In this document: piece after piece, positions 10,849 to 40,286 of the stretch
Layout of the letters: each line of letters opens with the position of its first letter
How positions within the stretch are numbered: position 1 is the stretch's first letter
NCBI GenBank assembly: GCA_945883955.1
Contig: CAMCYN010000006.1
Span: 1-43,726, forward strand
Direction of reading: 5' to 3'
Length of the DNA stretch: 43,726 nucleotides
Source of the DNA: Akkermansia muciniphila
Lineage (GTDB): Bacteria; Verrucomicrobiota; Verrucomicrobiia; Chthoniobacterales; Chthoniobacteraceae
Position numbers and translations under genes: made by a program
The notes under the pieces: model-generated
Databases searched by the model: none
Told to the model about the DNA's origin: nothing
Seen by the model: only the letters and a program-made list of their open reading frames with translations

Positions 10849-12258
10849 ATGAAACTCACGTCCCCTCTCACTACTCTGGTCACCATGACCCTCTCCGGAG
10901 CAGCACTGCCCTTAAGTGCCGCCGTAGATTTTGTTAAGGATATCCAGCCCGTACTGGAACTCCACTGCGTGTCCTGCCACCGGGAAGGGAAAGGTAATTC
11001 TAAAGGCGGTCTGCGCCTCGACACCCAGGAGCAGGCTACTACCAGTGGCGACAGTGGCCCCGGAGTGGTTGCCGGAAAACCCGACAAGAGTCCCGTCTAC
11101 ACATCCATGATCCTTCCTGCCGACGACGACGACATCATGCCGCCGAAAAAGAAAGGTCCGCCGCTCCCGAAGGAAACCACGGACTTGGTCAAAAAATGGA
11201 TCGAAGAAGGAGCGATATGGCCGGCGGGAGTGAAGCTTATTTCCCGAAAGAAAGAGGAGGCTCCGAAAAAGGACGAAAGCGTCGTCGTGAAGGAAATTCA
11301 CGAACGTATCGTCGCAACAACTCCCGCGACCAACGAAAAGGAAATGAAGGCTTACGCCTCGGTGATTCCAGGCACTGAAGTGAGCTTTGAAATGCTCCCC
11401 ATTCCCGGCGGCAAATTTAAGATGGGCAGCCCGGCCTCCGAAGAAGGACGCAAGGATGACGAAGGCCCCCAGCGCCAGGTCGAAATCGCCCCGTTCTGGA
11501 TGGGTAAATGTGAAGTTACCTGGAACGAGTTCGAATTGTTCATGTATCCCACCGAAGAAAAACGGATCAGGGAAACACACAAGGTAGACCCAAAACTCAA
11601 CGAACTCACCGACGCATCCACGCGCCCTACACAACCTTACGTTGAGATGAGTTTTGGCATGGGCAAAGACGGCTTCCCCGCCATCTCCATGACTCAACAC
11701 GCCGCCAGCAAATACTGCGAGTGGCTCAGCGCCAAAACCGGCCAGTTCTACCGCCTTCCCACCGAAGCCGAATGGGAATACGCCGCCCGCGCCGGTACCG
11801 AAACGGCCTACTTCTGGGGCGATGACGCCTCCAAAATGGACGAGTACAGCTGGTGGGCAAACAACAGCGACGGCAAGTACCAGAAAGTCGGCAAAAAGAA
11901 GCCCAATCCGTGGGGCCTCTGCGACATCCTGGGCAACGTAATCGAGTGGACCCTCGACGGCTATGACGCCAACGCTTACGACTCCGCTCCGGCCAGCAAT
12001 CCGTGGAACAAAGCCACCAAATCCTATCCGCACTCCGCCCGCGGTGGTGCTTGGGACGACGATTCCGCAGACAAGCTTCGGGCAGCCGCCCGGCGCTTCT
12101 CGGATCCGGATTGGAAAATTCAGGATCCCCAGTTCCCAAAGAGCGTCTGGTATCACACCGACGCCCAGTTCCTTGGCTTCCGCATTGTGCGTCCTCTGAC
12201 CACTCCCTCTGCGGAAGAAATGGAAAAGTATTGGAATAGCGGCGTCGAAAAGGACTAA
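10849..12258 (+). CDS. Secreted planctomycete-type cytochrome c fused to FGE-like domain
   Basis: This 469-residue protein has a signal peptide (about 1-25, ending LPLSAA). A planctomycete-type cytochrome c domain follows (about 27-120), with haem site C40-V-S-C43-H44, the segment KGGLRLDT and the axial-ligand-type motif IMPPKKKGPPL. A charged linker leads to a formylglycine-generating-enzyme/SUMF1-like domain (about 180-460), with IPGGKFKMGS, MGKCEVTWNEF, RLPTEAEWEYAARAG and GLCDILGNVIEWTLD. The final segment reads ARGGAWDDDSADKLRAAARR. The cysteines used for catalysis by true FGEs are absent there, so sulfatase activation is unlikely; a binding or other role in the periplasm fits better. 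No sulfatase gene is nearby. A hairpin terminator follows. Confidence 0.85.
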   Translation: MKLTSPLTTLVTMTLSGAALPLSAAVDFVKDIQPVLELHCVSCHREGKGNSKGGLRLDTQEQATTSGDSGPGVVAGKPDKSPVYTSMILPADDDDIMPPKKKGPPLPKETTDLVKKWIEEGAIWPAGVKLISRKKEEAPKKDESVVVKEIHERIVATTPATNEKEMKAYASVIPGTEVSFEMLPIPGGKFKMGSPASEEGRKDDEGPQRQVEIAPFWMGKCEVTWNEFELFMYPTEEKRIRETHKVDPKLNELTDASTRPTQPYVEMSFGMGKDGFPAISMTQHAASKYCEWLSAKTGQFYRLPTEAEWEYAARAGTETAYFWGDDASKMDEYSWWANNSDGKYQKVGKKKPNPWGLCDILGNVIEWTLDGYDANAYDSAPASNPWNKATKSYPHSARGGAWDDDSADKLRAAARRFSDPDWKIQDPQFPKSVWYHTDAQFLGFRIVRPLTTPSAEEMEKYWNSGVEKD

Positions 12259-14649: not shown

Positions 14650-15954
14650 TCAGAATCCGTAGCAGATAATCCGGGCGCCACTACCGTCACGCCCGCGCTC
14701 GTTCTGGCTGACGAAAAGTCTTCGCCCGGCCACCACAGGTATCGTCCAGGTTTCCGGCGCGTCGAAAAGCCGGACACGCTGCTCTACACTCGCGCCTTCC
14801 GCATTGACCTTGATCCGGCACAATTCGCCAAACTCGCCCAAGGCCAGGACTCCGCGATCGCCGAGATCCACAAGATTTCCTCTCCCAAACCGCCCCCCGA
14901 AATCGTCCCTCCATTTCTCCACTCCGGTTTTCGCATCCAGACAGACCAGTTCCGCTAACCTCGGATTCTGGCCGTCGAAGCCGAGGATAAAGCCATCCTT
15001 TTCGATCGGTGTCATAAACTGTGCCCCGAGCTTGGCGCTGCTCCAGACTTTCCGTAACGCCCCGTCCTCGAGAATTTCGCACAACACGCCTCCTGCACCG
15101 TACCCTTCCGTCACAAATACCTGCCGACCCGTCACCAAGGGTGATGAAGCATTTACCGATTCCGCAATGTGCGAGCGATGCGGAAACTCGCCAAGGATCT
15201 GGCCGTTTTCCGCATCAATACAAAGCAGGCCCCCCGTTGGAGGACGGCTCTCTCCACCGGTAAACAGAAGAATCAGTTTTCGCTCCTTCCCTCCCAATTG
15301 CACACGAGTGGGAATTGCCGAGGCGTATCCCGCACCCCATCCGTGAGCGGCTTCCCAAAGTACCTCGCCATTGCGCGCATCCAGAGCCACGACGCATCGA
15401 TTTTTTGCTCCACCGACTGGCACAATAATTCGCCCGTCCGAAACCAGCGGCGTGGATCCATGCCCAAAGAAGTTTTGCTTCATTGCAAACTCACTCGCGA
15501 GGTCCCGCTTCCATCGCAATGTACCGCTTTTCAAGTCCACGCAGTGCAACAGGCCGGTCACCCCGAATATGAAAACATTCCCACCATACACCACGGGACT
15601 GGTGCGCGGACCGTCGCTTGCCCCGTAACGGTCTCTATAGGGAGCCGAGTATCGATAATTCCAGAGCACCTCTCCAGACGCCTTGGCCAGACAATCGAGA
15701 ACCTCCTCCGCTTCAACCCGATGGAAAACGAGCACACTCTCTCCAACCACAGTCGGACAGGCCCATCCCTTGCCCTTTTTAAATTCCCATTCCGTCTTTA
15801 AACCCTCCTCCGGCCACAAACCCGCCACATCCACAGCCGCCGCCCTGCCGTTATAAAACGGACCAAGGAAGTGCGGCCAGTCGCCGGCAAATGCCGAGCA
15901 TTTTAGGGACGCTATTATCCCGAGAACCGAAGCATGTTGGATCAGGCGATGCAT
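14650..15954 (-). CDS. Secreted PQQ-type beta-propeller protein (operon end)
   Basis: This 434-residue protein has a signal peptide (about 1-23, SLKCSAFAGDWP) followed by the DWPHFLGP start motif common in these secreted propellers. Repeated blades carry the PQQ-like pattern, for example LDCLAKASGEVLWNY, LHCVDLKSGTLRWKRD, VALDARNGEVLWE, LLCIDAENGQILGE and LVCLDAKTGVEKWRD. I see no quinoprotein dehydrogenase catalytic signature (no vicinal Cys-Cys disulphide), so a binding or scaffold role is as likely as an enzyme. It is the last gene of the operon, 53 bases after the chorismate-lyase-like stop. A TTG 45 bases upstream is a poorer start. Confidence 0.85.
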   Translation of the reverse strand: MHRLIQHASVLGIIASLKCSAFAGDWPHFLGPFYNGRAAAVDVAGLWPEEGLKTEWEFKKGKGWACPTVVGESVLVFHRVEAEEVLDCLAKASGEVLWNYRYSAPYRDRYGASDGPRTSPVVYGGNVFIFGVTGLLHCVDLKSGTLRWKRDLASEFAMKQNFFGHGSTPLVSDGRIIVPVGGAKNRCVVALDARNGEVLWEAAHGWGAGYASAIPTRVQLGGKERKLILLFTGGESRPPTGGLLCIDAENGQILGEFPHRSHIAESVNASSPLVTGRQVFVTEGYGAGGVLCEILEDGALRKVWSSAKLGAQFMTPIEKDGFILGFDGQNPRLAELVCLDAKTGVEKWRDDFGGRFGRGNLVDLGDRGVLALGEFGELCRIKVNAEGASVEQRVRLFDAPETWTIPVVAGRRLFVSQNERGRDGSGARIICYGF

Positions 15955-16007
15955 CACTCCTTTGAGAACCCTTCGACAAAGGAGTGCAAGCGCCAACAAA
16001 TCCGGCC

Positions 16008-16544
16008 TCAGACGGGAGGCAACACCTCGACGATCCGGGCAATCAACGCTCCGTCATCGTGGCGCAAAATATTACATCGCCCGTACAGCAGGACGCCCAC
16101 ATTGGTTTCCAGAAGGCGGGCCAGACTTTCATCTGGCGACAACTGAAAAAACGCCTGCGGCTCGCTATGATAACGCACCTTATGAGCATTCAAGAGCCCC
16201 CCCAGGGGCACGGTGCCCTCTAAAATCTTCGCCCGAATTCCCGGCTCAAAGGCATCCAGAAATATCTCGATTGCACCATATTCAACCGCTCCACGGTCAC
16301 CTTGGCGGCGCAAAATCACTTCGCGGCAATACTCCTCAGTCTCAGAGCGCAGACTCTGAAGAACCTCCAAAATAACAGGCCCGTGATGAAAAGCTTCCAG
16401 CCGGGAGGTCATGTCCCCGGAATGCACCAAAAGGCTGCGGAAAGGCTCAGGGACCAGTTCTGAATCGATGGCTTCAAATGTGCCTGCAATTTCACCGTGG
16501 AGCCGGGCCAAAGGCTCTAACAATTCCCTGCGAACGGTGCTCAT
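16008..16544 (-). CDS. Chorismate lyase-like (UbiC/DUF98-type) protein
   Basis: This 178-residue protein has the skeleton of chorismate pyruvate-lyase. LLVHSGDMTSRLE matches the LLLEDSMTKRFE region of E. coli UbiC. YCREVILRR (R74) matches LREILL. VPLGGLL matches TPLGRYL. LYGRCNIL (R156) matches the WGRRSRL region, and ARIVEVLPP (E173) matches LTELFLP with its catalytic Glu. The remembered UbiC sequence is the basis of this comparison; no alignment was run. UbiC converts chorismate to 4-hydroxybenzoate and pyruvate. The ATG overlaps the radical SAM stop (ATGA). No ubiquinone genes are near, so the product probably feeds this operon's own pathway. A 3-hydroxybenzoate-forming variant cannot be excluded. 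Confidence 0.75.
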   Translation of the reverse strand: MSTVRRELLEPLARLHGEIAGTFEAIDSELVPEPFRSLLVHSGDMTSRLEAFHHGPVILEVLQSLRSETEEYCREVILRRQGDRGAVEYGAIEIFLDAFEPGIRAKILEGTVPLGGLLNAHKVRYHSEPQAFFQLSPDESLARLLETNVGVLLYGRCNILRHDDGALIARIVEVLPPV

Positions 16545-17881
16545 GTGTAACGGGCGTTTTGATGCCGGGGTAAAAAGAAGGCGGGAAGCAGCGTATCCAC
16601 TTTCAGCAACGCTTCACGCGTCAGCTCAAACCGTTCGCCCTGCCAATCCGCGAGTTTCCGTTGGCCCAGTTCCGCCCACTGTGGAGCAAAACGCGTCCGG
16701 ATATCCTCGCCGAACTTCTGACTAAAATACGGAGCATTCACACGGCCCAACTTCATCTGTAAAATTAGCTCCCGAATCATTCGCTCCTCGGGAGTCGTCG
16801 CCATAGCCCGGGAAACGGGCAGTTCTTCACGTTCAACCCGGTCGATATATTCACCGATCTCAGCCACATTCTGGAAGTGGACGCCGCCAATATGTGAAAA
16901 GGAAGCCACCCCGGCTCCCACCAGGTCCGCCCCTTTCCAGAGCGCGTCACGATAAACAAACCGTGTCCGCTCCGGATCCCGTACCGCCGTATATCCACTG
17001 GTCACGGTATATCCGGCTTTCTCGAGTTCCGCGAAGGCGTACCCTACCCAATCCCGCTTTTGGTTCCAGGTGGCAACCGGCGCCACCAGTTTCCCTTCTT
17101 CTTTCATCTGCTTGAAAATCCCCGTGTTATACGGCACCTCCATCTGATAAATGGTCACGCAGTCGGGGGAGAGCTCGATCAGCTTGCGCACGTTTTCACG
17201 CCAATTTTCGTCCGTCTCCTCCACCATTCCCGCGATCAAATCGACATTGATTTGGGGAAATCCTGCGGCGCGCGCCCATGCAAATGCGCGATGAATTTCA
17301 TCCGCACGATGAGCCCGGCCGTTGATCTCCAAAATGCGGGAATCAAAATTCTCCACGCCCAGACTCAAACGAGTCACCCCAAGCTCACGAATGGCCAGAA
17401 GCTTGGCCTCATTCAACGTTCCTGGTTCGGCCTCAAACGTGACCTCTTCCACCTCATCCCAGGGAAGGAGCGCTTTCATCCGATCCGTCAGCGAACGCAG
17501 TTGAGAAACACTTAGGTAACTCGGCGTTCCCCCTCCAAAATAAACAAACCGTGGTTTTCGGCCGTTCACAAAAGGAGCCGCCGCGTACCTTGCCAGCTCT
17601 CGCATTCCGGCATCCAAATACCGCTGGATCTCAGACGCATTCCGGTCGGTATAAACTCGGAAATAGCAGAAGTGACAGCGTTTGCGACAAAACGGGATAT
17701 GGAAATAGACCCCCAGCGGAGTTTCCGGGGCAGCCGGATTCTTGAGTAACTCTTCGAGATAACGCGCCGTGCCCGCATCCCAAAAATGAAAGGGCGGATA
17801 GTTCGCGATGAAATAATTCCCTGCGGTCGTCTCCTCGGCTTCCGGCACTGGAAGTTGCGAGTCTGGCAGTAGGTTGCTCAT
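16541..17881 (-). CDS. HemN/HemW-like radical SAM protein
   Basis: This 446-residue protein has the radical SAM cluster motif C65-RKR-C69-HF-C72 (HIPFCRKRCHFCYF), GGGTP at 116-120 and a HemN-type C-terminal part (about 350-430: TPEERMIRELILQMKLGRV). In true HemN the cluster motif reads CxxxCxxCxC; here the extra Cys is replaced by Phe and the following residues are RVYTD, unlike HemW's CDFNS. So it is a relative, not clearly a coproporphyrinogen oxidase. Its job may be a radical step in the operon's small-molecule pathway, or haem chaperoning. The ATG overlaps the stop of the preceding propeller gene, and its stop overlaps the chorismate-lyase-like start. Confidence 0.8.
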   Translation of the reverse strand: MSNLLPDSQLPVPEAEETTAGNYFIANYPPFHFWDAGTARYLEELLKNPAAPETPLGVYFHIPFCRKRCHFCYFRVYTDRNASEIQRYLDAGMRELARYAAAPFVNGRKPRFVYFGGGTPSYLSVSQLRSLTDRMKALLPWDEVEEVTFEAEPGTLNEAKLLAIRELGVTRLSLGVENFDSRILEINGRAHRADEIHRAFAWARAAGFPQINVDLIAGMVEETDENWRENVRKLIELSPDCVTIYQMEVPYNTGIFKQMKEEGKLVAPVATWNQKRDWVGYAFAELEKAGYTVTSGYTAVRDPERTRFVYRDALWKGADLVGAGVASFSHIGGVHFQNVAEIGEYIDRVEREELPVSRAMATTPEERMIRELILQMKLGRVNAPYFSQKFGEDIRTRFAPQWAELGQRKLADWQGERFELTREALLKVDTLLPAFFLPRHQNARYT

Positions 17882-19038
17882 GGTTTTGAGGGGTTTGAAT
17901 GAAGTCCGTAAACAGAGCCGTCTTCGGCACCAATAATAATCCAACCGTCTGAAACTGCAGGCGATGCCACCACTGGCGCACCAAGCTCATAGGTCCAACG
18001 CTCGGACCCGTCTTTCATGGAAACGCAATAAATCCGGCCATCCAGCGATCCCACAATAACCGCATCGCCACAGATCACCGGCGACCCGTCTATTTTGCCC
18101 CGCGTGGACACCTGCCAAAGCATGGTTCCATCGGCGCGGTTGAGGCAATGAAGCCTCTTGTCATTCCCTCCAATAACCACGCGATCTGAACTGACTGCGG
18201 CGCTCGACAGGTAGGGAAAATTGCGGTCGCGATATCGCCATAACACGGTGGCGGTTTTGGGATTCAGCCCCATGACCACATTTCCATAATGGCCCACATA
18301 CGCCATTCCGTCATCGGCTACTGCCACTGAAGAAGCCACATAAGCATCAGATTCAATTTGCCTCAACGCCTGCCCGTCCTTGAGAGACACCACCCGAAGT
18401 ATCGCGTCACATCCGCCAAAGATCACCTCGCCTTCCGGCAACAAGGCAGGCGTTCCATTGATGTAATTATCCGTGGCGGCCTTCCAGATCCCCTTTCCCG
18501 TGGAGGCATCCACGCAGTGCAAATTCGAATCGTAGCCGCCTACCAGAATCCAGTCAGCGGTCCCGTCGGGAGATTTCGCGGTATTCGCACCTCCCAAGAT
18601 TTTGTCTCCCGTCTCGTAATGCCAAGTCAGGGTTCCGGATTCCGAATCGAGACAATATAACTTCCCGTCGCTCGAACCCACGATCACCTGTGTGCCCAGA
18701 ACCAAAGGGGTCGCTTCCACGGCTCCCTCAGTTTTAAAGGACCATATCTCTTTTCCCGAGCTGAGATAGAGCGCGTGAACAATACCGGCATCATCCCCGA
18801 CAAAAATCCGGCCTGAAGCAATAGCCGCTCCGCCTTTAATCGGTTTACCCGCCACAAATGACCACTCGAGCTTTGGAGAGGCAGGCGCCGCCATCGAGGA
18901 AACGCCGTTCAGATGCGGATTCCCCCGGTGCATAGGCCAGTCAGACGTTGCCCCATCGACCCGCGCCCCCACCGCACCCACCACCGCACCTAAAAAAACG
19001 GCTCGTGCATCACTCCAACCGGATTTCAGGAAGGTCAC
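17878..19038 (-). CDS. Secreted PQQ-type beta-propeller protein (GTG start)
   Basis: This 386-residue protein has a hydrophobic signal-like start (about 12-30) and the motif DWPMHRGNPHLNG, then seven or so regular blades: VHALYLSSGKEIWSFKTEG, LYCLDSESGTLTWHYETG, LHCVDASTGKGIWKAA, LHCLNRADGTMLWQV and IYCVSMKDGSERWTYELG. These are BamB/PQQ-type repeats. The start is GTG, joined to the alcohol dehydrogenase stop as GTGA. Its stop overlaps the radical SAM start. It is a second propeller inside the same operon and probably acts in the periplasm. Confidence 0.87.
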   Translation of the reverse strand: MTFLKSGWSDARAVFLGAVVGAVGARVDGATSDWPMHRGNPHLNGVSSMAAPASPKLEWSFVAGKPIKGGAAIASGRIFVGDDAGIVHALYLSSGKEIWSFKTEGAVEATPLVLGTQVIVGSSDGKLYCLDSESGTLTWHYETGDKILGGANTAKSPDGTADWILVGGYDSNLHCVDASTGKGIWKAATDNYINGTPALLPEGEVIFGGCDAILRVVSLKDGQALRQIESDAYVASSVAVADDGMAYVGHYGNVVMGLNPKTATVLWRYRDRNFPYLSSAAVSSDRVVIGGNDKRLHCLNRADGTMLWQVSTRGKIDGSPVICGDAVIVGSLDGRIYCVSMKDGSERWTYELGAPVVASPAVSDGWIIIGAEDGSVYGLHSNPSKP

Positions 19039-20239: not shown

Positions 20240-21676
20240 TTACCATGCGCGCTCGATCGAACGGCGCTTGTAGAGGAATTCGAACATATTCCCCTCATGC
20301 GGCTGATCCCATGAAATCTTCATCGTAGAGACCGGACCCAAGTTGAGCCGTTCAATGAGTGATGAAGCCAACAACTGCTCGGTGAGACAGGGATCCTTTG
20401 TAATGGCTGTCACCACCAAAGAAGGCCCGATTTTTTCGAGCATCTCTGCCTGAGGTACCTCCACAACACTGGCATAAGGACACAGATATTCGCGATTGGC
20501 CAGAGGGTGAGCGAACGAATCACACCGGATAATTGTAGCCCGGAGGTAAACACCGCCCGCAAAAACCACCCGTCTTGGCCCGCCGCGATATTTTGCAGTC
20601 ACGTCCTCGGCGCCACTCGTTTTCAGTCCGTCTTCGATTGCTGCATCAATGAAATCGGCCATCTTCGGGTTGGCAAAACCAGACAACTTTGCGCCTTCGT
20701 CCTCGGGAGTCAGTGGCTCAATCGGTCCAAGCTTTTGCGCAAGGGCGTCGGCGATCTCGGCCCCATAACGCGGCACGACAACAGCGGACGCATTTACGCA
20801 TGAGCGGCCTCCGTTGTCAGAAATCGAAGCCGCAATGACATCGATGTATTCGCGCCAGTTTTCGATGCAGTCCTCCCCAATCAGCACTTTCGAAAACCCC
20901 GGGCCGTGAACCGAAAACTTCGGGTTATCGCGGTATTGGGCAACTGTGTTTGCATCACCAAATAAAAGAGCCCGGCCACAAATTTTCAGGACCTCAGCAG
21001 ATCCTTCATGATCGGTTGGATAAAATCCAAACGCCTCGGCCGGCGCACCAGCCGCAATGAAAGACTGAATCAATCGATAAGGCGTCCACGGCTCTTCTCT
21101 CCCAGGTTTGATAATGACCGGCGTTTTAAGCGCAATTGCAGGCAGCCACAATGAATTCACAGCAGGCGAATTACTAGGCATCACCAACCCAAGCGCCTGA
21201 GTCGTAGGATAATAGCTCACAGCAGCTCCACTCTGCTCCCCAAATCCCCGATCGATAACCTCCATTGGTAACCCACGCGTGAGGCCGTTTAGGACTGTCG
21301 CAACGTGCGTGAGCGCGTAATGGATTTTCTCCATATTCCTGCGGACCATCACATGGGGGAGTCCACTCGTACCCGACAAAGTCTTCACATAATCTTCCGC
21401 ACTTTGCTGATGCCCTTTATCTCCCAAAGGAAGCGTGCCCCTTAGAAATAGCTCCCCCGCCTTGGAAGAGATATCGACCAATTCAGCGACCGTGAATTTC
21501 TTTAATGCGGCACGTGCCTCGCCGATAAGCCGCATATCCTTCTTCAGAATCCCAGCGTTCACCTGACTGACCGTTGCAACCACCTGACCGGTGCGATGGT
21601 CAAGCACCTCGGTTTTATCCAGGCTCTCATACGGTTTGCCGCGACGCAGTACGGGCAGATGAGGCAGTGCGCTCAT
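20240..21676 (-). CDS. Aldehyde dehydrogenase-fold acyl reductase
   Basis: This 478-residue protein has the aldehyde dehydrogenase fold. The cofactor region is LGLVMPSNSPAVNS (163-176), then LKTPVIIKPGREEPW. The catalytic Cys is C293 in DNGGRSCVNAS. It lacks the usual FTGS-type turn, as acyl-CoA or acyl-adenylate reductases (LuxC-like) often do. Next to an adenylate-forming enzyme it most likely reduces an activated aryl or acyl carboxylate to its aldehyde. The pair resembles EhpG/EhpF, described for griseoluteic acid biosynthesis. Its ATG overlaps the stop of the adenylating enzyme (TAATG). Confidence 0.8.
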   Translation of the reverse strand: MSALPHLPVLRRGKPYESLDKTEVLDHRTGQVVATVSQVNAGILKKDMRLIGEARAALKKFTVAELVDISSKAGELFLRGTLPLGDKGHQQSAEDYVKTLSGTSGLPHVMVRRNMEKIHYALTHVATVLNGLTRGLPMEVIDRGFGEQSGAAVSYYPTTQALGLVMPSNSPAVNSLWLPAIALKTPVIIKPGREEPWTPYRLIQSFIAAGAPAEAFGFYPTDHEGSAEVLKICGRALLFGDANTVAQYRDNPKFSVHGPGFSKVLIGEDCIENWREYIDVIAASISDNGGRSCVNASAVVVPRYGAEIADALAQKLGPIEPLTPEDEGAKLSGFANPKMADFIDAAIEDGLKTSGAEDVTAKYRGGPRRVVFAGGVYLRATIIRCDSFAHPLANREYLCPYASVVEVPQAEMLEKIGPSLVVTAITKDPCLTEQLLASSLIERLNLGPVSTMKISWDQPHEGNMFEFLYKRRSIERAW

Positions 21677-22746
21677 TAGTAAACGCCCTCCACGATATTT
21701 TTCTCCATTGCGCCAAAAGGACGAACCTCAGCCACTCCATCCCACGCGTATTGCCCCCGCGGCTTACGCCGGAGTGCTTCGTCACGCTCCAGGAAGCGGG
21801 GCATAAAGAACTCCTTGGTCAGCGTGGTTAATTCCACTCGTCCCCATGTATCGTATTCAACCGTACGATCCGTGTCGTTTGGATCGACCACCCGAAGAAT
21901 CGCACGAGGTTGTGGCGCGTAGTAGCTGATGGAAAACTGATCCTCCGGCGTAAGCGGTACGGAGGCTGCAAGTCCCATGAGTGTGTTCCCATAAGTGGGA
22001 TAGAAGCCGATCCTGTTTTCCAGAATCTCTTCCACAATGAACCGGACGTATTGCGGCAGCATGGTAGTCCCTCCGCAGAATACACCACGGATTCCAGAAT
22101 CCCAAAGGTCCACTCGTTCCGCCAGGGCTTCCAGCAGTTTTGGCGTCGTAAACAGGCCGCTGACCTTGCGGTGCTTCAAAATGGTCGCAGCCTGATCTAC
22201 CACGTGATCCATATAGGCTTTAGCCTGATCGAACTGTTTATTGAGGATTAACCGCTTCACCCACCGGGGATCCAGATCAATAAAGTAACAAGCCGATCCA
22301 CGCACATTGGCCAGATGCTCGATGGCCAGTCGCAATCTGCGGGGGCCAGTCGGGCCCATCATGAGCCAGAAATGATTACGCGGAAAATGCTCGTCGCTGA
22401 TCTTATTGCTGAACTCGCTGTAATCGGTTTTGTAATCCTCCCAGCCGATTCGCTGTTTCGGCATCCCTGTTGTCCCGCCAGTTTCAAAGATATTGAAAGG
22501 TCTGCCGTTGTATGCCTTGGGCACCCAGACCTCGGGCTGCATGTCGCGCAGCCACTCGTCCTGAAAATGAGGGAACTTCTTCAAATCGGCAACGGACTGG
22601 ATTTCCGCACGGGGATCCCAACCCGCTTTTTTTGCCCAATCGAGCCAGAACGGAGATCCGGTTTCCGGACTAAAATGCCACTGGATAATTTCGAGGAGAT
22701 GAGACTCAAGCTGGGCCTGAGCTTCGTCGGCGGTCGGATTTTTCAT
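21676..22746 (-). CDS. EhpF-like adenylate-forming enzyme
   Basis: This 356-residue protein resembles a shortened ANL-superfamily adenylating enzyme. The phosphate-binding loop is ETGGTTGMPKQR (88-99). A later motif, YPTYGNTLMG, fits the aromatic/ATP pocket, and DGVAEVRPFG comes near the end. ANL enzymes usually have about 500 residues including a mobile C-terminal domain. That domain seems missing or very short here, which matches EphF-type atypical ANL proteins such as EhpF, thought to activate a phenazine carboxylate for reduction. LuxE (acyl-protein synthetase) is a more distant alternative. With the reductase encoded next, carboxylic acid activation is the likely role. Substrate is inferred as a hydroxybenzoate from the chorismate-lyase-like gene. 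Confidence 0.7.
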   Translation of the reverse strand: MKNPTADEAQAQLESHLLEIIQWHFSPETGSPFWLDWAKKAGWDPRAEIQSVADLKKFPHFQDEWLRDMQPEVWVPKAYNGRPFNIFETGGTTGMPKQRIGWEDYKTDYSEFSNKISDEHFPRNHFWLMMGPTGPRRLRLAIEHLANVRGSACYFIDLDPRWVKRLILNKQFDQAKAYMDHVVDQAATILKHRKVSGLFTTPKLLEALAERVDLWDSGIRGVFCGGTTMLPQYVRFIVEEILENRIGFYPTYGNTLMGLAASVPLTPEDQFSISYYAPQPRAILRVVDPNDTDRTVEYDTWGRVELTTLTKEFFMPRFLERDEALRRKPRGQYAWDGVAEVRPFGAMEKNIVEGVY

Positions 22747-22751
22747 AAGAT

Positions 22752-24227
22752 TTAAACGCGGGGGGCTATCAAAGATTCGTGAGAATTTTCTTCAGGCTTA
22801 GGCTCGGGAAGCCAGTGGGTAAGGATGACACCAATGAGTGCATAGACGCCGGCAACGACAGCGCCAGTAATGGCGATTTTGGAGGCGTTCGGCGGTTTGG
22901 CTTCCGAAAGGGTCAGGGTGATCCACGCAGCCGCAGTCCCGAGTACCCGTCCGCCGATATTAGCGGCAAAACTTTCCCCCGTACCGCGAAGATGAACGGG
23001 AAACACCAAGGGGATGTAGTTGCCCCAAAAGCTGAACTGCGCAACGGTGAGAAGTCCGGCCAGAAAAATTCCCACTTTTACAAGGGGAAGCGAATTCGAG
23101 TTCAGACTCCACGAAATCCACCAGAAAAATAAGGGAATCAACAAGAGGGCTGGCACTTGAAAGATTCGCAGCAATGTGCGGCGACTGACCACGACCACCG
23201 CCAGCAGTGCCAGAAGCACACGCCCGACAAGTCCACCAATCTCTTGCCAGAGAGTGACTCCGGCAACGGCTTTATCGGTGGCGTTGCCTGCGATCTGTTT
23301 TAGCTTTCCAGGCGGCGGCATCGGTTTCCCATCCGCCGTGGCCTGCGCAATGGCGGCCTCCTTTGCGGCCACCCCGACCGCCAGTATTTCTTGCTGGCCG
23401 GTTGTCGGGGCACTCAGAATCTGCGGGAGCTGCTGAATGGCGCCAAAGGCAATGCCGTAACTTGCCGCAAATACCAGTGTGGTTACCACCGTGGTTCTCG
23501 CGAGTTCGGGACTGAAAAGTTCACGCAAACTCGGACGCCGGAACTGTCCGGAAAGGCGCTTCCGCTCCCACTCCGGAGACTCGGGAAGAAACGGACGAAT
23601 CAAAATCAGAGGCAATGCCGGAATAACGCCGGAGATAAGCGTATAGCGCCAAGCCTCATGATTTCCGTGAATCGCCGGAAGACTGAGCGCGATATTCGCG
23701 GCCAAAATATTCGCTCCGGCTACCAGTAAACCTCCCAGCGACGATGCCGCCTGGGTATAACCGAGCACTTTCTCGCGACGTTCGGGATCGGTGAAAAGTT
23801 CAGCCAGCCAAGCCACAGCCGCTACGAACTCGACACACACACCGATAAAAACCAAACACCGGAAAAACAACAGTTGAGGCAGGGACGTGGACAACCCAGC
23901 GCCAACAGCCGCGCCCGCATACAGCAAGATACTAAACGTAAGCACACGCCGGCGCCCAAGCAGATCGGTAAGATACCCTCCCAACAAGCCAAACACTCCG
24001 CCCGCAATCGCAGGAATAAAAAAGAGCGTTCTGGCCCATCGGACATATGGTTCAGACCCGGGAGTTAGAAGCGGCACGCCATCCGCCCCCATGCCGCCAA
24101 GCACGGCCAAAGCCGGCTTGATAACGAGGGGGAGCATGAGCAATTCGTAGATATCGAATGCAAACCCGATGGCAGCAATCGTACATATAAGCCACTGGGT
24201 CCGAGTTAGTGGTATCTTGGCAATCAT
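22752..24227 (-). CDS. MFS transporter
   Basis: This 491-residue inner-membrane protein has the major facilitator pattern of about 12 helices. The conserved loop is GGYLTDLLGRRRVL between helices 2 and 3, and LPESPEWERKR follows helix 6, as in the metabolite:proton symporter group (sugar, aromatic acid or dicarboxylate carriers). The loop between helices 7 and 8 is unusually long (about 275-320, Ala/Pro/Lys-rich). It starts 13 bases after the propeller stop and ends five bases before the adenylating enzyme. Substrate is unknown; in this context an aromatic acid, aldehyde or alcohol is a reasonable guess, for export or uptake. Confidence 0.88.
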   Translation of the reverse strand: MIAKIPLTRTQWLICTIAAIGFAFDIYELLMLPLVIKPALAVLGGMGADGVPLLTPGSEPYVRWARTLFFIPAIAGGVFGLLGGYLTDLLGRRRVLTFSILLYAGAAVGAGLSTSLPQLLFFRCLVFIGVCVEFVAAVAWLAELFTDPERREKVLGYTQAASSLGGLLVAGANILAANIALSLPAIHGNHEAWRYTLISGVIPALPLILIRPFLPESPEWERKRLSGQFRRPSLRELFSPELARTTVVTTLVFAASYGIAFGAIQQLPQILSAPTTGQQEILAVGVAAKEAAIAQATADGKPMPPPGKLKQIAGNATDKAVAGVTLWQEIGGLVGRVLLALLAVVVVSRRTLLRIFQVPALLLIPLFFWWISWSLNSNSLPLVKVGIFLAGLLTVAQFSFWGNYIPLVFPVHLRGTGESFAANIGGRVLGTAAAWITLTLSEAKPPNASKIAITGAVVAGVYALIGVILTHWLPEPKPEENSHESLIAPRV

Positions 24228-24240
24228 GGCGGCAGATGAC

Positions 24241-25818
24241 CTAAGGCTTCACTTGAGCTGGAACCGGCGCAGCACCTTCTCCGTATACAAACAGGTGCGT
24301 TTGAGTGCCAATATACATGGCGCCGTTTGCGACAATTGGCGTCGAATAGATTGGCGCTCCCAGATTACATTCGCTGAGCACTTTCTTTTCCTTGCTCGAG
24401 GCCAAAACCACAAAGTCACCGTCTTCATCGCCGACATAAACCTTCCCATCGGCTACGAGAGTGGAACCCCACATGTGGGCCTGCATGTCATGTACCCAGA
24501 AAAGTTTGCCGGTCTCCGCATCCAGGCAATGCACAAATCCAGAGAAGTCGGCAATGAAGAGAAGTCCGTTTTCCGGATCGATAGATACCGTCGAAATCGA
24601 GCGCTTGATTCCTTTGTAATCCCAAATAAGCGCGGAACTTGTCACATCACCTTCCTTACTGGGATCAATACACAACAAACGTCCCACGCCCTCCCCGTGC
24701 TCTGGATCCTGGCCAACGGCGACATAAACGCGATTTTTATAAAAGACCGGCGTAGCATTCACTTCACTTGGTCCCTCAGCCGCCGGATACTTGATCGGCT
24801 TGCCATTCTTGTCCTTCTTGTACTCCTCTGGCACGCAATCAAACGACCAGAGCGTCTTAAGGAAACTCGAATCTCCTTCTTTAACTGCCTTGGTATTCAG
24901 GGCATACAGAACTCCATCGCCACCACCAAAGTACACCTGCGACTTACCGTTTACCGTGCCGAGAGATGGCGAAGTCCATTGCCCGTGGAGAATCTTTGGA
25001 CCAATCCCGGCATTATCCTCACCGAGAAGTTCACCAGTCTTTTTATCTAACGAGATAAACGAAGGTGACTGGGGAGACGGAATATTGACATGCGTCCAAT
25101 CCTGCCCGTTGGAAGTGCAAACAAAAATGCTATCTCCCTGAATAATCACTGAACAGTTGGATGCATTATGAGGAAACACTCCGAGTTCATCCATCATGTC
25201 GTATTTCCAGAGGATATCGGCATCCGTGAGGAGAACGTCCACCTTGGGTTTTCCAGGCCCAACCATGTATTGGCCTTCATCCTGGAAAGGCCCCTGATTG
25301 CCATTGGCCTGCCCGTGCAGATCCAGGCAAAGGACTTCACAGCGACTGGTCACTATGTAGACCCTATCCCCTTCCACACAAGGCGAAGCCAGTAATCCCA
25401 GATACTCCCAGTCGTTTACTTTACCCGAGGCCAGCTTGGGGACCGTGAGTTGCCAAAGCAGCGAGCCATCGGCCTCGCGCAAAGCGTACAAGATAGATTT
25501 GTCGTCCTTGAAACGGAGATCCCGGGGCGAGGCATTGTTTGTTCCTACGAGAACGACCCCTTGGGAAACCACCGGATTTCCGTAGGACTGCGATCCCAAT
25601 TTTGCGATCCACTTCACGTTCTTCGTGGTGGCCATATCAATCTCCTCCGAGTTGGGCTTAAACTTGCCCGGCGTGAAAGACGAAGGCAGGCCCTTCACCG
25701 GCGAATACATATTCCGCCCGGGGTCGTTCCCCCCCCATTGTGGCCAATCGGCAGCGAAGGCAGAGCAGCTCAAAACGGCCAAACCGATCACGAAAGACGA
25801 ACAAGGAAACAAGTTCAT
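24241..25818 (-). CDS. Secreted PQQ-type beta-propeller protein
   Basis: This 525-residue protein has a signal peptide (about 1-22, VLSCSAFAADWP), then DWPQWGGND, and a propeller with PQQ-like blades such as LYALREADGSLLWQL, VLCLDLHG, LYALNTKAVKEG, VHCLDAETGKLFWVHD and VYVGDEDGDFVVL. Its sequence reads like quinoprotein-family relatives found in planctomycetes and verrucomicrobia. I cannot see a catalytic vicinal disulphide or clear PQQ-contact residues. The ATG used gives a normal signal peptide; an open frame 48 bases longer is less likely. It starts ten bases after the stop of the largest propeller gene. Confidence 0.86.
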   Translation of the reverse strand: MNLFPCSSFVIGLAVLSCSAFAADWPQWGGNDPGRNMYSPVKGLPSSFTPGKFKPNSEEIDMATTKNVKWIAKLGSQSYGNPVVSQGVVLVGTNNASPRDLRFKDDKSILYALREADGSLLWQLTVPKLASGKVNDWEYLGLLASPCVEGDRVYIVTSRCEVLCLDLHGQANGNQGPFQDEGQYMVGPGKPKVDVLLTDADILWKYDMMDELGVFPHNASNCSVIIQGDSIFVCTSNGQDWTHVNIPSPQSPSFISLDKKTGELLGEDNAGIGPKILHGQWTSPSLGTVNGKSQVYFGGGDGVLYALNTKAVKEGDSSFLKTLWSFDCVPEEYKKDKNGKPIKYPAAEGPSEVNATPVFYKNRVYVAVGQDPEHGEGVGRLLCIDPSKEGDVTSSALIWDYKGIKRSISTVSIDPENGLLFIADFSGFVHCLDAETGKLFWVHDMQAHMWGSTLVADGKVYVGDEDGDFVVLASSKEKKVLSECNLGAPIYSTPIVANGAMYIGTQTHLFVYGEGAAPVPAQVKP

Positions 25819-25828
25819 AGCTAGAGTT

Positions 25829-28303
25829 TTAGGGCTTTTCAGGGAGGTTAGAGTTAACGATAACATTGTCTATCCAAGCACGCTGTTCTTGCGGCGTGAA
25901 CGAAAAGAGTCCGGGCGCGCCGTCCGTATGGGCGGTTTTATGGGGCACTTCAATGGTCCATGCCGCAGGTTCCGCGTCCCCTTTCTTCCAGACCTTGGCA
26001 CGCACAACGCCCGATCCATCGGCCGCCAAATCCACACGAGACTTTAGCTGGTACCATTGATTGGGCGACCAAGCGAAAGGAACGGACTCACGCAGGCGCT
26101 CCTGATTCGAACTTACCTCAAGAGCCTGTGCATTACCCTTCAATACAACTAGATAGCGCTGATTAATGAGCCCAATTTCGCTCATCTTCCGCTTGTTGCC
26201 TTCGGTAAGCAAATCAGCCTGGATCGTATAATTGCGGGATCCTGGATGTCCGATAAAAATTTGCCCTCGCTGGAAAAGCTTATTATCGATCGTCTTGCAG
26301 AGCGCTTTATTGTCCCCCTCACCTGGTGCCTTACGCACCTCAAAGCGAAAACGGGCAGAATTCCAAGCAAGAGGAGGGTAAGCAAACGGGGTCGCAGGTT
26401 CCAAAGTGTTCGGAATAGCCGGTGCCGGTGGCATATCCGTGCTCAACGCCAAGTCGAATTGTTCAAAATCAATATTCAGCGGAATGTCCGGCAAGACCCG
26501 CGCCCTCATTGTCCCCTTGAGGTCTCCCAGACTGGCTTGAAAAGCCCCTGCACTCGCCAAAGGAGCGTCATCGGCAACCAGTTTTGCCGCTCCGTCAAAT
26601 TTACCCTTCATTTGCGCCTTCACCAAGGCGGTTGGCGGAATGTAGCTCTCGAACTTCACTTTGCTCAGGTCCACTGACTCCTGAACAGTGAACCCCTTGG
26701 CATCCAGGGAGCGAACCCGAACCTGGCGAGACTCACCAGGCCTCAGAAGCATCTCGCTAGGAATTATTTGCAATCGTGAAGCAGGCCCCACGGCAACCTC
26801 CGGCCAGTTCTCCCGAGCATTCACCTGGGCGGCCGCAGGGTTATTTCCCGCTTTACCAAAGCAATACAACTTTCGATCGGTTTGAACGTAGAGTTTGCCA
26901 TTAAACGGGACAGGAGTCCCGTAGCAGCGTCCCTCCAAAATGGTGCGAGACAGCACTTCCACGTCCCCGTCTCCCGGTTTCAAAACAAACAACTCTCCAT
27001 TGCCACCCGTGTCATTTCCCTCGCCAGCAGCACCGGCCGCGCTGGCGTCAGCTATATAGACAGCCACATACAATTTCCCGTCTCCGTACATTGGTGAACT
27101 CTGACGCTGTTCTGGAGCAAGTTTCCTTCGCCACAGCACCTTACCATTGTCCGCGTCGGCGGCCACGACTTCGCCGGTTCCCGTCACCGAATACAATCGA
27201 TTCCCAACTAAACACGGAGAACTTGCTAGATTGCCTAGCGGATTCCGCCAGATCTCGAGTTCCTTTGGATCAAGCACCATTGGCTTTCCCGCCTCAGGTG
27301 CCGTCACGCCCAGAGGAAGTTTAAAAGCCGCAGACCGTCCAACTTCGCTCGTATCCAAGTTTTCGGATTCATGCACAACCAACAACGAATCCTTATACCG
27401 AAGAATCGAAGCATTAATCCCCCCCTTAGCCCCCGCCTTTGCGGCCGGAAAGCGGAAGATTGGATCCCCAGTTCGGGCATTAATTCCCACAACCGTTGAA
27501 TCGCCTCCTGCCGAAATAAGGACCCGCTGACCGTCCATCCAACTCAGTAACGGATGAGAAAATGTATTGTCCTGAGGCCGTTCACCGGGAGCACTTGTCC
27601 AAACAAGCTCTCCTGTTCGCTTATCGAAAGCATAAAACCGATCTCCGGCTGCTCCATTGGCTCCCCAGTTCGAGGTGATTCCCCTAGTGATCACCAATTC
27701 ACGATCGAGCACAGGCGAAGCGGTCCGTGAATTCGGAAAGGTCATTCGGCCATATGCCTCCATCAACGAATGCTGCCACAGGAGCTTTCCATCTGACGAA
27801 AAGCATGAAAAAAGGCCCTGGGTGCACTGCACATAGACATTTCCAGTTTCGGCATCTACCGCAGGACTCGAAGTCGAATACCGGAGGTAAATTGTATCAC
27901 TTAGAAAGTCATTGAAACGGTGCATCCAAAGCTTTTTACCGCTCTCAGCATCTAGGCAAGCTACAACCTCCTGTAGATTAGAACCTTCCCCAAGATACCC
28001 GTTAATATAAAGGTTTCCCCGGTAAACCACCGGAGTGGATTGTCCAGGGAGATCTGCTGTCCAGAGGGGAGATTTTGAATCCACCGAGGAAGGCAATCCC
28101 ACCTCGGGAGTCGTACCGTTGTGACTCGGTCCCCGCCAGTCAGTCCAGCCTTGAGCGGAGAGGGCAAAATTCCCGGGCCGACCTAAATTGGAAGCCGATC
28201 GTTTCTCTCCACCATGCCCCGAGGAAGGCGTCTGCTGCGGCGCAGCAAACAAGGAGGTTGAAAGACACAAGGTGGCGAAAAGAAGGGCGGAGGGGAGTTT
28301 CAT
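25829..28303 (-). CDS. Large secreted beta-propeller with C-terminal LamG-like domain
   Basis: This 824-residue protein is the first gene of the ten-gene operon. It has a signal peptide (1-20, MKLPSALLFATLCLSTSLFA) and a propeller (about 50-480) starting WTDWRGPSHNG. Blades include VACLDAESGKKLWMHR, FYAFDKRTGELVWT and VVAADADNGKVLWRR. A middle beta domain (about 495-610) contains LRPGESRQVRVRSLDAKG. The final part (about 620-824) looks like a LamG/concanavalin-like jelly roll of the kind also seen in DUF1080-type proteins, with RNYTIQADLL, WSPNQWYQLKSRVD and RAWIDNVIVNS. That domain often binds carbohydrate. It is probably periplasmic or surface-associated. Confidence 0.83.
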   Translation of the reverse strand: MKLPSALLFATLCLSTSLFAAPQQTPSSGHGGEKRSASNLGRPGNFALSAQGWTDWRGPSHNGTTPEVGLPSSVDSKSPLWTADLPGQSTPVVYRGNLYINGYLGEGSNLQEVVACLDAESGKKLWMHRFNDFLSDTIYLRYSTSSPAVDAETGNVYVQCTQGLFSCFSSDGKLLWQHSLMEAYGRMTFPNSRTASPVLDRELVITRGITSNWGANGAAGDRFYAFDKRTGELVWTSAPGERPQDNTFSHPLLSWMDGQRVLISAGGDSTVVGINARTGDPIFRFPAAKAGAKGGINASILRYKDSLLVVHESENLDTSEVGRSAAFKLPLGVTAPEAGKPMVLDPKELEIWRNPLGNLASSPCLVGNRLYSVTGTGEVVAADADNGKVLWRRKLAPEQRQSSPMYGDGKLYVAVYIADASAAGAAGEGNDTGGNGELFVLKPGDGDVEVLSRTILEGRCYGTPVPFNGKLYVQTDRKLYCFGKAGNNPAAAQVNARENWPEVAVGPASRLQIIPSEMLLRPGESRQVRVRSLDAKGFTVQESVDLSKVKFESYIPPTALVKAQMKGKFDGAAKLVADDAPLASAGAFQASLGDLKGTMRARVLPDIPLNIDFEQFDLALSTDMPPAPAIPNTLEPATPFAYPPLAWNSARFRFEVRKAPGEGDNKALCKTIDNKLFQRGQIFIGHPGSRNYTIQADLLTEGNKRKMSEIGLINQRYLVVLKGNAQALEVSSNQERLRESVPFAWSPNQWYQLKSRVDLAADGSGVVRAKVWKKGDAEPAAWTIEVPHKTAHTDGAPGLFSFTPQEQRAWIDNVIVNSNLPEKP

Positions 28304-29487: not shown

Positions 29488-30186
29488 CTACTTCAAAGCC
29501 AGATGAACCGCCATCCGTTGGTTTTCTGGTGCCTTGGGATCAGTCCCTTCCAGGGGCCGCGTGTCGGCAAAAGCGTTAACCCTGAGGATTTGCTGAGGGT
29601 TAAGTTCATAATGAACAAAGCGACGACGCGCGGCATTCGTCCGATCCAGACTCAATTCCCATGGCCCGTATTTGGAAACTTCGCCCGATATAGTGCCCTT
29701 GGCAGTATGACCGTCGATGTACAGCTTCATCGAAAATCGCCTCGCCACCATCGAGAGGTTTTGAATCACAAAATCCCCCCAAGGAGTTAACTCCGCCGTT
29801 CCCTTTTTGAACACGGCCTGATTCGTCCGCTCAAACATCGTCACCTTTAAAACCCCGTTCAAAGACCTGATCTCCACGGGCTTTTCGTTAGGGATATCCG
29901 CCAACTTCAACATCCTGATCAACTCGTCGCTAATCATCTCAAGCTTCTTGTTAGAGTCGGTAGAACTATCTTCACCGCTCAGAGGGGAGTCTTTAACACC
30001 AATCGTGTCCTTGTCTCCACCTGGTGCGCCTTCACTCAAGACTTCGTCATCAAATACGACCTTCTGCTTCTCTTTAGGATCCGGCGCGATAATCCAAAGC
30101 ACAATAAACAAGGCCATCATAGCGGTGACAAAGTCCGCATATGCCACCTTCCACGCTCCCCCATGATGTGCGGCCTTTTTTCCCAT
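29488..30186 (-). CDS. motB: Flagellar motor protein MotB (copy 2 in operon order)
   Basis: This 232-residue stator protein has a short basic start, then GGAWKVAYADFVTAMMALFI. The helix carries the proton-conducting Asp at D18 (YADF). A plug and linker rich in Asp/Ser come next, and the C-terminal OmpA-like peptidoglycan-binding domain has FKKGTAELTPWGDFVI, LYIDGHTAKG, LSLDRTNAARRRFV and QRMAVHLALK. The TAMMALFIVLWI helix matches proton-type rather than sodium-type stators. It follows the Cys-rich gene by 33 bases and is the last gene of the flagellar operon. It is the same length as the other MotB but diverged outside the N-terminal helix. Confidence 0.92.
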   Translation of the reverse strand: MGKKAAHHGGAWKVAYADFVTAMMALFIVLWIIAPDPKEKQKVVFDDEVLSEGAPGGDKDTIGVKDSPLSGEDSSTDSNKKLEMISDELIRMLKLADIPNEKPVEIRSLNGVLKVTMFERTNQAVFKKGTAELTPWGDFVIQNLSMVARRFSMKLYIDGHTAKGTISGEVSKYGPWELSLDRTNAARRRFVHYELNPQQILRVNAFADTRPLEGTDPKAPENQRMAVHLALK

Positions 30187-30219
30187 TTGAACAACCGGTT
30201 TCGCTAAGGAAAATCCTCG

Positions 30220-30582
30220 TTAGTAGGTGCAATCCAACTCTATCCGACGACAACAGGTGCAGGTAACGACAATCTTATCGATGCGGCCAGCATTAGTCAC
30301 CACCTCAACCGAAGGTGACTCTAACGCCTTAGAAATGGATTGACCTTCAACCGCGGGCGGATCGGGAGTAATTTCGTTCCTAGGCTCAACGACATTGCCG
30401 GCTTCCAGCAAGGCTGAACGAAGAGACTGAAATCCTCCGGTCCTTGATAACCCCTCGCCAAAAGTGTCATCGCTATCAAGAAGATCTCGGTACGGCAGCT
30501 CTTCAACAGGAGGCAATACACCGTCAGACTCCGCCGCCACCGCCTTTGGACGGCTGGCAAGAAAGCTTTCCATGAACTTCAT
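30220..30582 (-). CDS. Small protein with Cys-rich C-terminus between two motB genes
   Basis: I do not recognise this 120-residue protein. Residues 1-95 are acidic and low in complexity, with no signal peptide or membrane segment. The last 22 residues are distinctive: IDKIVVTCTCCRRIELDCTY, with four cysteines in CTCC...C spacing that could bind a metal or form disulphides. Its ATG overlaps the stop of the first motB gene (ATGA), so it is translationally coupled to the stator genes. That position suggests a stator or motor accessory role, but there is no direct evidence. Confidence 0.7.
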   Translation of the reverse strand: MKFMESFLASRPKAVAAESDGVLPPVEELPYRDLLDSDDTFGEGLSRTGGFQSLRSALLEAGNVVEPRNEITPDPPAVEGQSISKALESPSVEVVTNAGRIDKIVVTCTCCRRIELDCTY

Positions 30583-31277
30583 TTGAGGAGATTTAGATTA
30601 AGGGTGATCCGCTGATTATCCTGGGAAGCAGGATCGGCTGAAACCAATGGCTGGGTATCCCCGTAGCCAGAAAGCCGAACAATCCACTTCGGTTCCAGAG
30701 CATAATTAACGAGGGCTCGTCGCGCAGAATTTGCACGGTCAGCACTCAATTCCCATAGGCCATAGTCCGGGCCTTGGCTGGGCCCTTTTCCCGCAGAGGT
30801 ATGGCCTTCGATAAACACCCTCATTTTGTTTCGCTCAATAATCCAAGAAAGACTTTCCATCACAAAGTCGCCCCACTTGGTAAGCTTGGCTGAATCTTTC
30901 TCGAACATAGGACGCTTATTGCGGTCAAACAAGGTTAGCTTCAAAGCATCTGCCGTTATCTGGATGTCGATTGGCTTATCATCCGAGTCATTGGCATTAA
31001 CAATTTTTTGCATTTCAGCAGCAATCTTCTCCAACCGCTCAATCTGCTGTTCGGCCGCCATTTTGTCGTAGTCCACGCCCGGGGTGACTACATCGGTCTG
31101 GCTAACGCCTCCCTTTTGCCCAATCAAGGGCTTCTTAAAGGTCGCAGCGATTTCCTCCGCCATCTGTGGCCTATCTTTAATGATCCATAAAACAATGAAC
31201 AAGGCCATCATTGCCGTCACAAAATCGGCATATGCGACTTTCCATGCACCGCCGTGATGTTCGTTCTTTTTTCCCAT
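30579..31277 (-). CDS. motB: Flagellar motor protein MotB (copy 1 in operon order)
   Basis: This 232-residue MotB paralogue starts MGKKNEHHGGAWKVAYADF and shares the whole N-terminal helix with the other copy, including the proton-carrying Asp. The linker differs and has a helical stretch (AAEQQIERLEKIAAEMQ). The OmpA-like domain shows FEKDSAKLTKWGDFV, VFIEGHTSAGKGP, LSADRANSARRALV and QRITLNLNLLK. The ATG at 31277 is preferred to one 21 bases upstream because it matches the MGKK start of its paralogue. It follows motA by 44 bases. Together with MotA it should form a proton-driven stator. Confidence 0.92.
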   Translation of the reverse strand: MGKKNEHHGGAWKVAYADFVTAMMALFIVLWIIKDRPQMAEEIAATFKKPLIGQKGGVSQTDVVTPGVDYDKMAAEQQIERLEKIAAEMQKIVNANDSDDKPIDIQITADALKLTLFDRNKRPMFEKDSAKLTKWGDFVMESLSWIIERNKMRVFIEGHTSAGKGPSQGPDYGLWELSADRANSARRALVNYALEPKWIVRLSGYGDTQPLVSADPASQDNQRITLNLNLLK

Positions 31278-31321
31278 GGGCAGGACTGGATAAATCAATT
31301 AAAGAGGCCTGTGGGTGCGAA

Positions 31322-32179
31322 CTACTTTCCGACTGTCTTTAAAATTTCCTCCAATTGGTCAGCAGAAGGGGTCAAATGATGATCGAGACAACGCCGTGAC
31401 ACTTCAACGGCCATCAAAGGGGCCATTCCTTGAGCAAATCCACACAGTCCCTTCATCAGGCCCAAGTAATACTGGTTTTCAAGACTATTGTTGGCAGTAA
31501 TACGGGCCGCGGTCGGATTAACAAATCCATAAGCGCCAAGAACCCCCATCAAGGTGCCAGTTAAAGCTCCCGCAACGCTCTTACCTACCATTCCTGCGCC
31601 TTGATCAACGATGGCCATTGTGTGGATAATTCCCAACACCGCAGCAATAATCCCTATTCCAGGTAGAGAGTCACCTATCAATTGAAGCATGTGAATTGGC
31701 TCAGCCGCCTCCTCTTCTTTTGCGTTTAAACTGACCATCATCAGTGATTCGAGCTGGTCCGGCTTGATTCGACCATCGATAAGTGGCTTCAAACCGTTAC
31801 AAAGAAAATCTAAACGATCGTGATTACCTGCTAAAGTCTTGTACTTTGAAAAAATCGCACTCTTATTTGGATCCAGGACGTGATCTTCAAGCGCAATCAG
31901 TCCGTTTCTTCGAGCTGTATTAAAGAGCTCATACATCAACTTTAACAACTCCTCCACATCCGGCTTTGCTACCGAGCCTCCCTTCAAGGCGACTACCAAC
32001 GACCCCACTAGGTTTTTGAGGCCCGCCATAGAGCTTGAAATCACCAACAGCCCCAAAGTGATTCCACCAAGCGTCACAAACTCTGACGCGACGAAGAGGG
32101 AGGACACATGGCCTCCGGCCATGGTAAAGCCTCCAATACATCCGACTATCACCAATATATAACCAATGATCAGGAGCAT
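31322..32179 (-). CDS. motA: Flagellar motor protein MotA
   Basis: This 285-residue inner-membrane protein has four predicted helices: two near the start (LLIIGYILVIVGCIGGFTMAG and FVTLGGITLGLLVIS), then a long cytoplasmic loop (about 60-165), then two more in SLPGIGIIAAVLGIIHTMAIV and VAGALTGTLMGVLGAYGFV. That is the MotA/TolQ/ExbB arrangement, and the length is usual for MotA. Its start overlaps the end of fliA by ten bases. As the only MotA here, it must pair with one or both MotB paralogues. Confidence 0.95.
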   Translation of the reverse strand: MLLIIGYILVIVGCIGGFTMAGGHVSSLFVASEFVTLGGITLGLLVISSSMAGLKNLVGSLVVALKGGSVAKPDVEELLKLMYELFNTARRNGLIALEDHVLDPNKSAIFSKYKTLAGNHDRLDFLCNGLKPLIDGRIKPDQLESLMMVSLNAKEEEAAEPIHMLQLIGDSLPGIGIIAAVLGIIHTMAIVDQGAGMVGKSVAGALTGTLMGVLGAYGFVNPTAARITANNSLENQYYLGLMKGLCGFAQGMAPLMAVEVSRRCLDHHLTPSADQLEEILKTVGK

Positions 32180-32964: not shown

Positions 32965-32979
32965 AATAGAGAAGCCTTG

Positions 32980-34331: not shown

Positions 34332-34384
34332 ATTATGCGCTCACCTAAGGTTTGCTTAAATACAAGCTATAGTTCACTAAAGAA

Positions 34385-36556: not shown

Positions 36557-36601
36557 CGATAGTCTATGATTCTACCCAACTTTGTAGAGCATGCGCCATG
36601 C

Positions 36602-37693: not shown

Positions 37694-37696
37694 CTT

Positions 37697-38458: not shown

Positions 38459-38497
38459 AGCCCCATGTAGACGAAAAGCAGAAGGCCAATCGACTCA

Positions 38498-40010: not shown

Positions 40011-40023
40011 AAGGGTATATTCG

Positions 40024-40284: not shown

Positions 40285-40286
40285 AG

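Follow-up and report, generated by a model that had tools for sequence, protein, structure and literature searches.

F and G, the products of two adjacent genes in the 43,726-nucleotide stretch of DNA analysed here (the window), very probably form a stand-alone aryl-carboxylate reductase dependent on ATP and NAD(P)H, a class assignment read from sequence. F is an EhpF-like adenylating protein, and G is an EhpG-like protein of the aldehyde dehydrogenase (ALDH) fold. The explanation that best accommodates the whole locus, which we hold with moderate confidence, places this aryl-acid reductase pair inside a conserved pathway fed by chorismate, while the more specific proposal that the substrate is a hydroxybenzoate is evenly poised.

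Pairs of this kind are already known; what is new is the setting of this one in a widely shared Verrucomicrobiota pathway that is apparently undescribed, and no published account of it was found in the open-licence literature. Aryl-acid reductases made of two proteins had been met here and there in antibiotic clusters; the present pair belongs to a co-inherited set of genes. That set, in which a chorismate-lyase-like protein is joined by a radical SAM protein, an FAD enzyme, and secreted beta-propellers, points to a widespread aromatic pathway. The conserved cluster also suggests which substrate to test, and F and G would be simple, carrier-free acid reductases for biocatalysis.

The Adenylating Protein F

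The initial annotation had described an adenylating protein of 356 residues with a TGGTTGMPK loop, EhpF-like and devoid of the usual C-terminal domain, and each part of this description holds. The open reading frame of F lies at 21676–22746 on the minus strand, and the loop occupies residues 89–97. A single-sequence search of the PDB returned EhpF as the sole convincing relative (E 8e-43 over residues 18–356, about 30% identity), with an alignment that runs out at the C-terminus of EhpF itself. The Pfam scan of F yielded one AMP-binding match, a partial one, and none to a C-terminal domain family. A profile of the F family matched EhpF at E 4e-90 and a phenylacetate-CoA ligase at E 1e-9. Structure prediction and comparison with EhpF, proposed earlier as a check, again placed EhpF at the top (Z 26.1), followed by PaaK1 (Z 21.1); as the pLDDT of the model is moderate (73), this search confirms the sequence result and does not extend it. 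In the tree, F falls with EhpF and other short relatives, and long, fully supported branches separate it from the full-length PaaK-like ligases that these clusters also encode.

F is a true EhpF homologue. It is filed as an EhpF-type homologue and not as EhpF itself because no phenazine gene cluster was recognised around it. Within the GTDB family, homologues of F are 81–90% identical to it; this conservation, together with the matches of both proteins to curated profiles or solved structures, shows that F and G are not chance open reading frames. Relatives at 67–89% identity occur in named Verrucomicrobiota metagenome-assembled genomes (MAGs) and in MAGs labelled Armatimonadetes, Vicinamibacteraceae, and planctomycete, the full range across Verrucomicrobiota and these MAGs being 57–90%. 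Plasmid homologues annotated as "arylcarboxylate reductase" are 31–36% identical to F.

The ALDH-Fold Partner G

G (20240–21676, minus strand; 478 residues) is a predicted reductase of the ALDH fold. Its C293, already pointed out in the initial annotation, sits in the motif GGRSCVNAS, and the reported overlap between the two genes is evident in the DNA, where the stop codon of F (TAA) and the start codon of G (ATG) share one base (TAATG). The match of G to the Pfam ALDH family is modest (48 bits). Both the catalytic Cys and the oxyanion Asn of ALDHs are present (C293 and N169), and Cys293, Asn169, and Glu396 are kept across 12 EhpG-type proteins, as in ALDHs. At the column of the general base Glu268, G carries His257, and all 12 EhpG-type proteins have His, Arg, Leu, Tyr, or Gln; Escherichia coli FeaB and AldA have Glu at this column. 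Judged by these residues, the missing general base fits a protein that would reduce an acyl intermediate rather than oxidise aldehydes hydrolytically.

The tree agrees with the EhpG-like label given to G, which groups with EhpF-associated ALDHs and is set off from both aldehyde-oxidising ALDHs included and from the methylmalonate-semialdehyde dehydrogenase. Ordinary ALDHs appear among the matches of G only at E 5e-9 or worse. All 18 well-covered plasmid relatives of G lie in records that also carry an F homologue; four Pantoea and two Streptantibioticus records of these 18 were matched to organisms counted for F, among the matches listed. By annotation, the two genes are adjacent in Streptomyces goshikiensis, Burkholderia ubonensis, Halalkalicoccus jeotgali, and an E. 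coli phenazine plasmid, and in Streptomyces NBC_00998 they are on opposite strands with about 2 kb between them.

Joint distribution supports the pairing proposed from adjacency. F was found in 19 of 388 genomes drawn across the phylum, and G in exactly those 19. The two genes are not linked in four of the 19: G332, G341, and G376 have them on separate contigs, and in G329 about 115 kb lies between them. A search of relatives found F in 31 genomes and G in 32, the exception being G014 (88% complete), with G only.

A Conserved Gene Cluster

The genes immediately around F and G are on the same strand and closely packed. Upstream are two PQQ-like beta-propeller genes, PQQa, encoding a large secreted protein (25829–28303), and PQQb, whose product has a signal-peptide-like N-terminus (24241–25866), followed by an MFS transporter gene (22752–24227). 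Downstream are genes for an iron-containing alcohol dehydrogenase (Fe-ADH, Pfam PF00465; 19035–20171), the propeller PQQd, also with a signal-peptide-like N-terminus (17878–19038), a HemN-like radical SAM protein identified by Pfam (16541–17878), a protein of 178 residues (16008–16544), and the propeller PQQc (14650–15999), all on the minus strand. The order PQQa–PQQb–MFS–F–G–FeADH–PQQd–radical SAM–178 aa–PQQc recurs within the genus, and elsewhere in the phylum genes for a DUF3311 protein and a Na+/solute symporter stand in place of the MFS gene. A divergent MarR-family regulator gene lies beside the operon in relatives. Cluster maps were made by tblastn, as long antisense open reading frames disturb simple gene calling.

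Outside the genus, the run extends to an FAD enzyme of the halogenase or geranylgeranyl-reductase type, a GT4 glycosyltransferase, a 4HBT thioesterase, a full-length PaaK-like ligase that has its C-terminal domain, and an ABC transporter. In the mapped loci (L205 10383–15500 with L182 1–1187, and L204 395–6029), the thioesterase gene is followed by those for a 177-residue probable membrane protein without a Pfam match, the PaaK-like ligase, an ABC ATPase, and an FtsX-type permease of about 1,060–1,100 residues. The PaaK-like ligase and the thioesterase were not found at the F/G locus in the genome of the window.

Co-occurrence was examined in a set of 48 genomes selected as F/G-positive (31) or F/G-negative (17). 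Fe-ADH and the HemN-like radical SAM protein were each present in 31/31 positive and 0/17 negative genomes, and PQQa in 30/31 and 0/17; the nominal Fisher values for these three, 2e-13 to 4e-12, are descriptive, since related genomes are not independent. The FAD enzyme scored at least 335 bits in all 31 positive genomes, whereas the negative ones held only distant paralogues at no more than 245 bits.

The statement that phenazine core genes are absent from the window is supported by Pfam scans of window genes, which revealed none (thresholds 0.01 to 1e-5, with several short open reading frames matchless). Nor were phz genes recognised in the conserved cluster mapped in relatives. A phenazine context was rejected, as no phz genes were recognised.

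Other parts of the window hold flagellar and motor genes (29488–43696; MotA, MotB, a sigma factor, FlhA, FlhB, FliR, FliP, FliO, FliM, FliL, and a rod/hook protein), type II secretion or pilus-like genes (5877–8616; T2SSM and T2SSK), and a gene whose product combines a planctomycete cytochrome c domain with a sulfatase-modifying-factor domain (10669–12258).

A Chorismate-Lyase-Like Protein

The 178-residue protein encoded at 16008–16544 on the minus strand is predicted, from its modelled fold and aligned residues, to be a chorismate lyase of the UbiC/DUF98 type. Its predicted structure (pLDDT 95.2) best matches AF1396 of DUF98 (2nwi; Foldseek E 1.9e-7; Z 17.6, rmsd 1.8 Å over 143 residues), and it aligns with E. 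coli chorismate lyase UbiC (1g81) at Z 12.3 along most of its length. In the structural alignments with UbiC and DUF98, identity is low (17–22%), and none of 15 members of the family matched the Pfam chorismate-lyase model at E 1. UTRA sensor domains share the same fold (Z up to 13.6), and the lyase activity is therefore a putative one. An alignment of the family with E. coli UbiC shows invariant M45-T46, R74, L78, G90, P113-L114-G115, G155-R156, and E173. Among these, M45, R74, G90, L114, and E173 align with Met34, Arg76, Gly90, Leu114, and Glu155 of UbiC, which we take to line the product site; a structure of a G90A mutant with product bound is available (PDB 1jd3). Rv2949c is presumably also a DUF98-type protein. 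In mycobacteria, it is reported to form p-hydroxybenzoate (PMC7205293).

The protein was found in 29/31 F/G-positive and 0/17 F/G-negative genomes. The complete genome G365 has two in-frame stops in the gene (L182, G365:C1:57620–58084), and the gene was not found in G450, a congener of G365, or in G487. G365 and G450 keep the rest of the cluster despite the damaged or missing gene. A HutX-type heme role, suggested by the HutW-like radical SAM neighbour, was dropped in favour of the chorismate-lyase-like fold.

PQQ-Like Propellers

Abundant propellers accompany the cluster. Strong PQQ_2 matches number 8–17 each in seven F/G-positive genomes (G006, G015, G365, G450, G202, G479, and G458), compared with none in six of eight F/G-negative genomes and 6–7 in the other two; these counts are of matched stretches, not genes, and express a correlation only. 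A cruder PQQ_2 count over the 48 genomes shows a difference that persists after allowing for genome size. PqqE scored over the cut-off in one of the 48 genomes, and 30 of the 31 F/G-positive genomes are without such a match. Ordinary PQQ enzymes supplied with self-made PQQ through PqqE are disfavoured by this distribution, with which scavenged PQQ is compatible. A more speculative idea, to which we give a slim chance, is that the cluster makes a novel chorismate-derived aryl aldehyde or alcohol that serves the secreted PQQ-like propellers as a non-PQQ redox cofactor, substrate, or shuttle. Such a link, if true, would explain the many propellers in F/G-positive genomes that mostly have no PqqE match.

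Proposed Pathway and Alternatives

From the computed homology, domain loss, residue pattern, co-occurrence, and chorismate-lyase-like fold, we infer the substrate, step order, acyl transfer, and end product of the pathway. The 178-residue protein would convert chorismate into 4- or 3-hydroxybenzoate, and with this lyase-like protein the pathway may supply its own aromatic acid. F, by homology, would activate the acid as an acyl-adenylate (hydroxybenzoyl-AMP), from which the acyl group would pass to Cys293 of G as a thioester. G would then reduce the thioester with NAD(P)H to hydroxybenzaldehyde, and Fe-ADH would reduce the aldehyde, probably to a benzyl-type alcohol (hydroxybenzyl alcohol).

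The same reductase chemistry might instead act on an acid imported by the MFS transporter or the Na+/solute symporter, with F, G, and Fe-ADH reducing it for catabolism or detoxification. In nearly all of the mapped lineages, the gene immediately preceding F does encode a transporter, a MarR-family regulator gene is divergent from the operon, and the MFS protein scores, below the cut-off, against an aromatic acid/H+ symporter model. A haloarchaeal F/G pair likewise follows a symporter gene, and some F/G-positive genomes have a damaged lyase-like gene or lack it. We nevertheless judge import rather unlikely, given a chorismate-lyase-like protein in 29 of the 31 positive genomes and none of the 17 negative ones, an ATP cost for aromatic acid reduction that is unusual in catabolism, and no ring-cleavage enzymes recognised among the window genes scanned. 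The enzymes of the extended clusters raise another prospect, in which the PaaK-like ligase would take over the activation of hydroxybenzoate, the FAD and radical SAM enzymes would tailor it, and F and G would reduce the later intermediate. The full-length ligase, the thioesterase, the FAD enzyme, and the glycosyltransferase are consistent with such a scheme, and this second ligase of relatives could activate hydroxybenzoate in place of F. The later-intermediate scheme seems improbable, as neither ligase nor thioesterase was found at the locus in the genome of the window and the characterised relatives of F use simple or tricyclic aryl acids.

Very improbable is an ordinary acyl-CoA ligase coupled to an aldehyde-oxidising ALDH of a catabolic operon, even though F has PaaK-type ligases as its nearest structural matches after EhpF and G keeps the Cys, Asn, and ribose-binding Glu of ALDHs. 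F is without the C-terminal domain used in CoA thioester formation, G is without the general-base Glu, and both trees set the two proteins apart from those families. Phylogeny had been put forward at the outset as evidence able to overturn the reductase reading; F stands apart from PaaK-like ligases and G apart from aldehyde-oxidising ALDHs, and that reading is retained. A plain CoA ligase with a catabolic ALDH was rejected on the trees and the missing general-base Glu. Neither LuxE nor LuxC was matched in Pfam or NCBIfam scans of F and G at E 1e-3, a comparison that covers family models only.

Related Systems

Carboxylic acid reductases (CARs) are single proteins that join adenylation and carrier domains to an SDR-type reductase. 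The overall chemistry proposed for F and G, ATP activation followed by NAD(P)H reduction, is the same, whereas they are two proteins with an ALDH-type reductase and no carrier domain. The pair resembles EhpF/EhpG of the griseoluteic acid pathway of Pantoea agglomerans (EhpF structures 3hgu, 3hgv, and 3l2k) in full-length homology of F, no C-terminal ANL domain, and an adjacent ALDH-fold partner. The window pair differs from it in its identity of about 30%, in having no recognised phenazine genes, and in a cluster with a chorismate-lyase-like protein, Fe-ADH, a radical SAM protein, and propellers. The chorismate-lyase-like protein shares its fold and aligned residues with UbiC and DUF98 (Rv2949c-type) lyases, from which it differs in its low identity and in having no Pfam match.

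Suzuki et al. (2007), as cited in PMC10179220, named GriC and GriD the carboxylic acid reductase of grixazone biosynthesis. Acting on 3-amino-4-hydroxybenzoate, GriC reportedly makes the acyl-AMP and GriD reduces it to 3-amino-4-hydroxybenzaldehyde (PMC10179220). This system of Streptomyces griseus is likened to F and G by description, as two separate proteins reported to reduce a carboxylic acid via acyl-AMP, and a two-protein reductase such as F/G is therefore not without precedent; the window pair comes from a different phylum and gene cluster.

Relatives elsewhere occupy varied surroundings. A Halalkalicoccus jeotgali plasmid (L053 8487–12545) carries Na+/solute symporter, F-like, and G-like genes, an archaeal pair with no biosynthetic cluster evident. 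On a plasmid of Streptomyces sp. Mut1 (L054 9917–19029), an F-like gene directly precedes an 8-kb type I polyketide synthase gene, and no ALDH annotation occurs near it in the 21 kb examined. The F/G pair on a Streptomyces goshikiensis plasmid (L051 11971–25053) is clustered with DAHP synthase, PabB-type, and aminotransferase genes, which suggests that its substrate is another shikimate-derived aryl acid.
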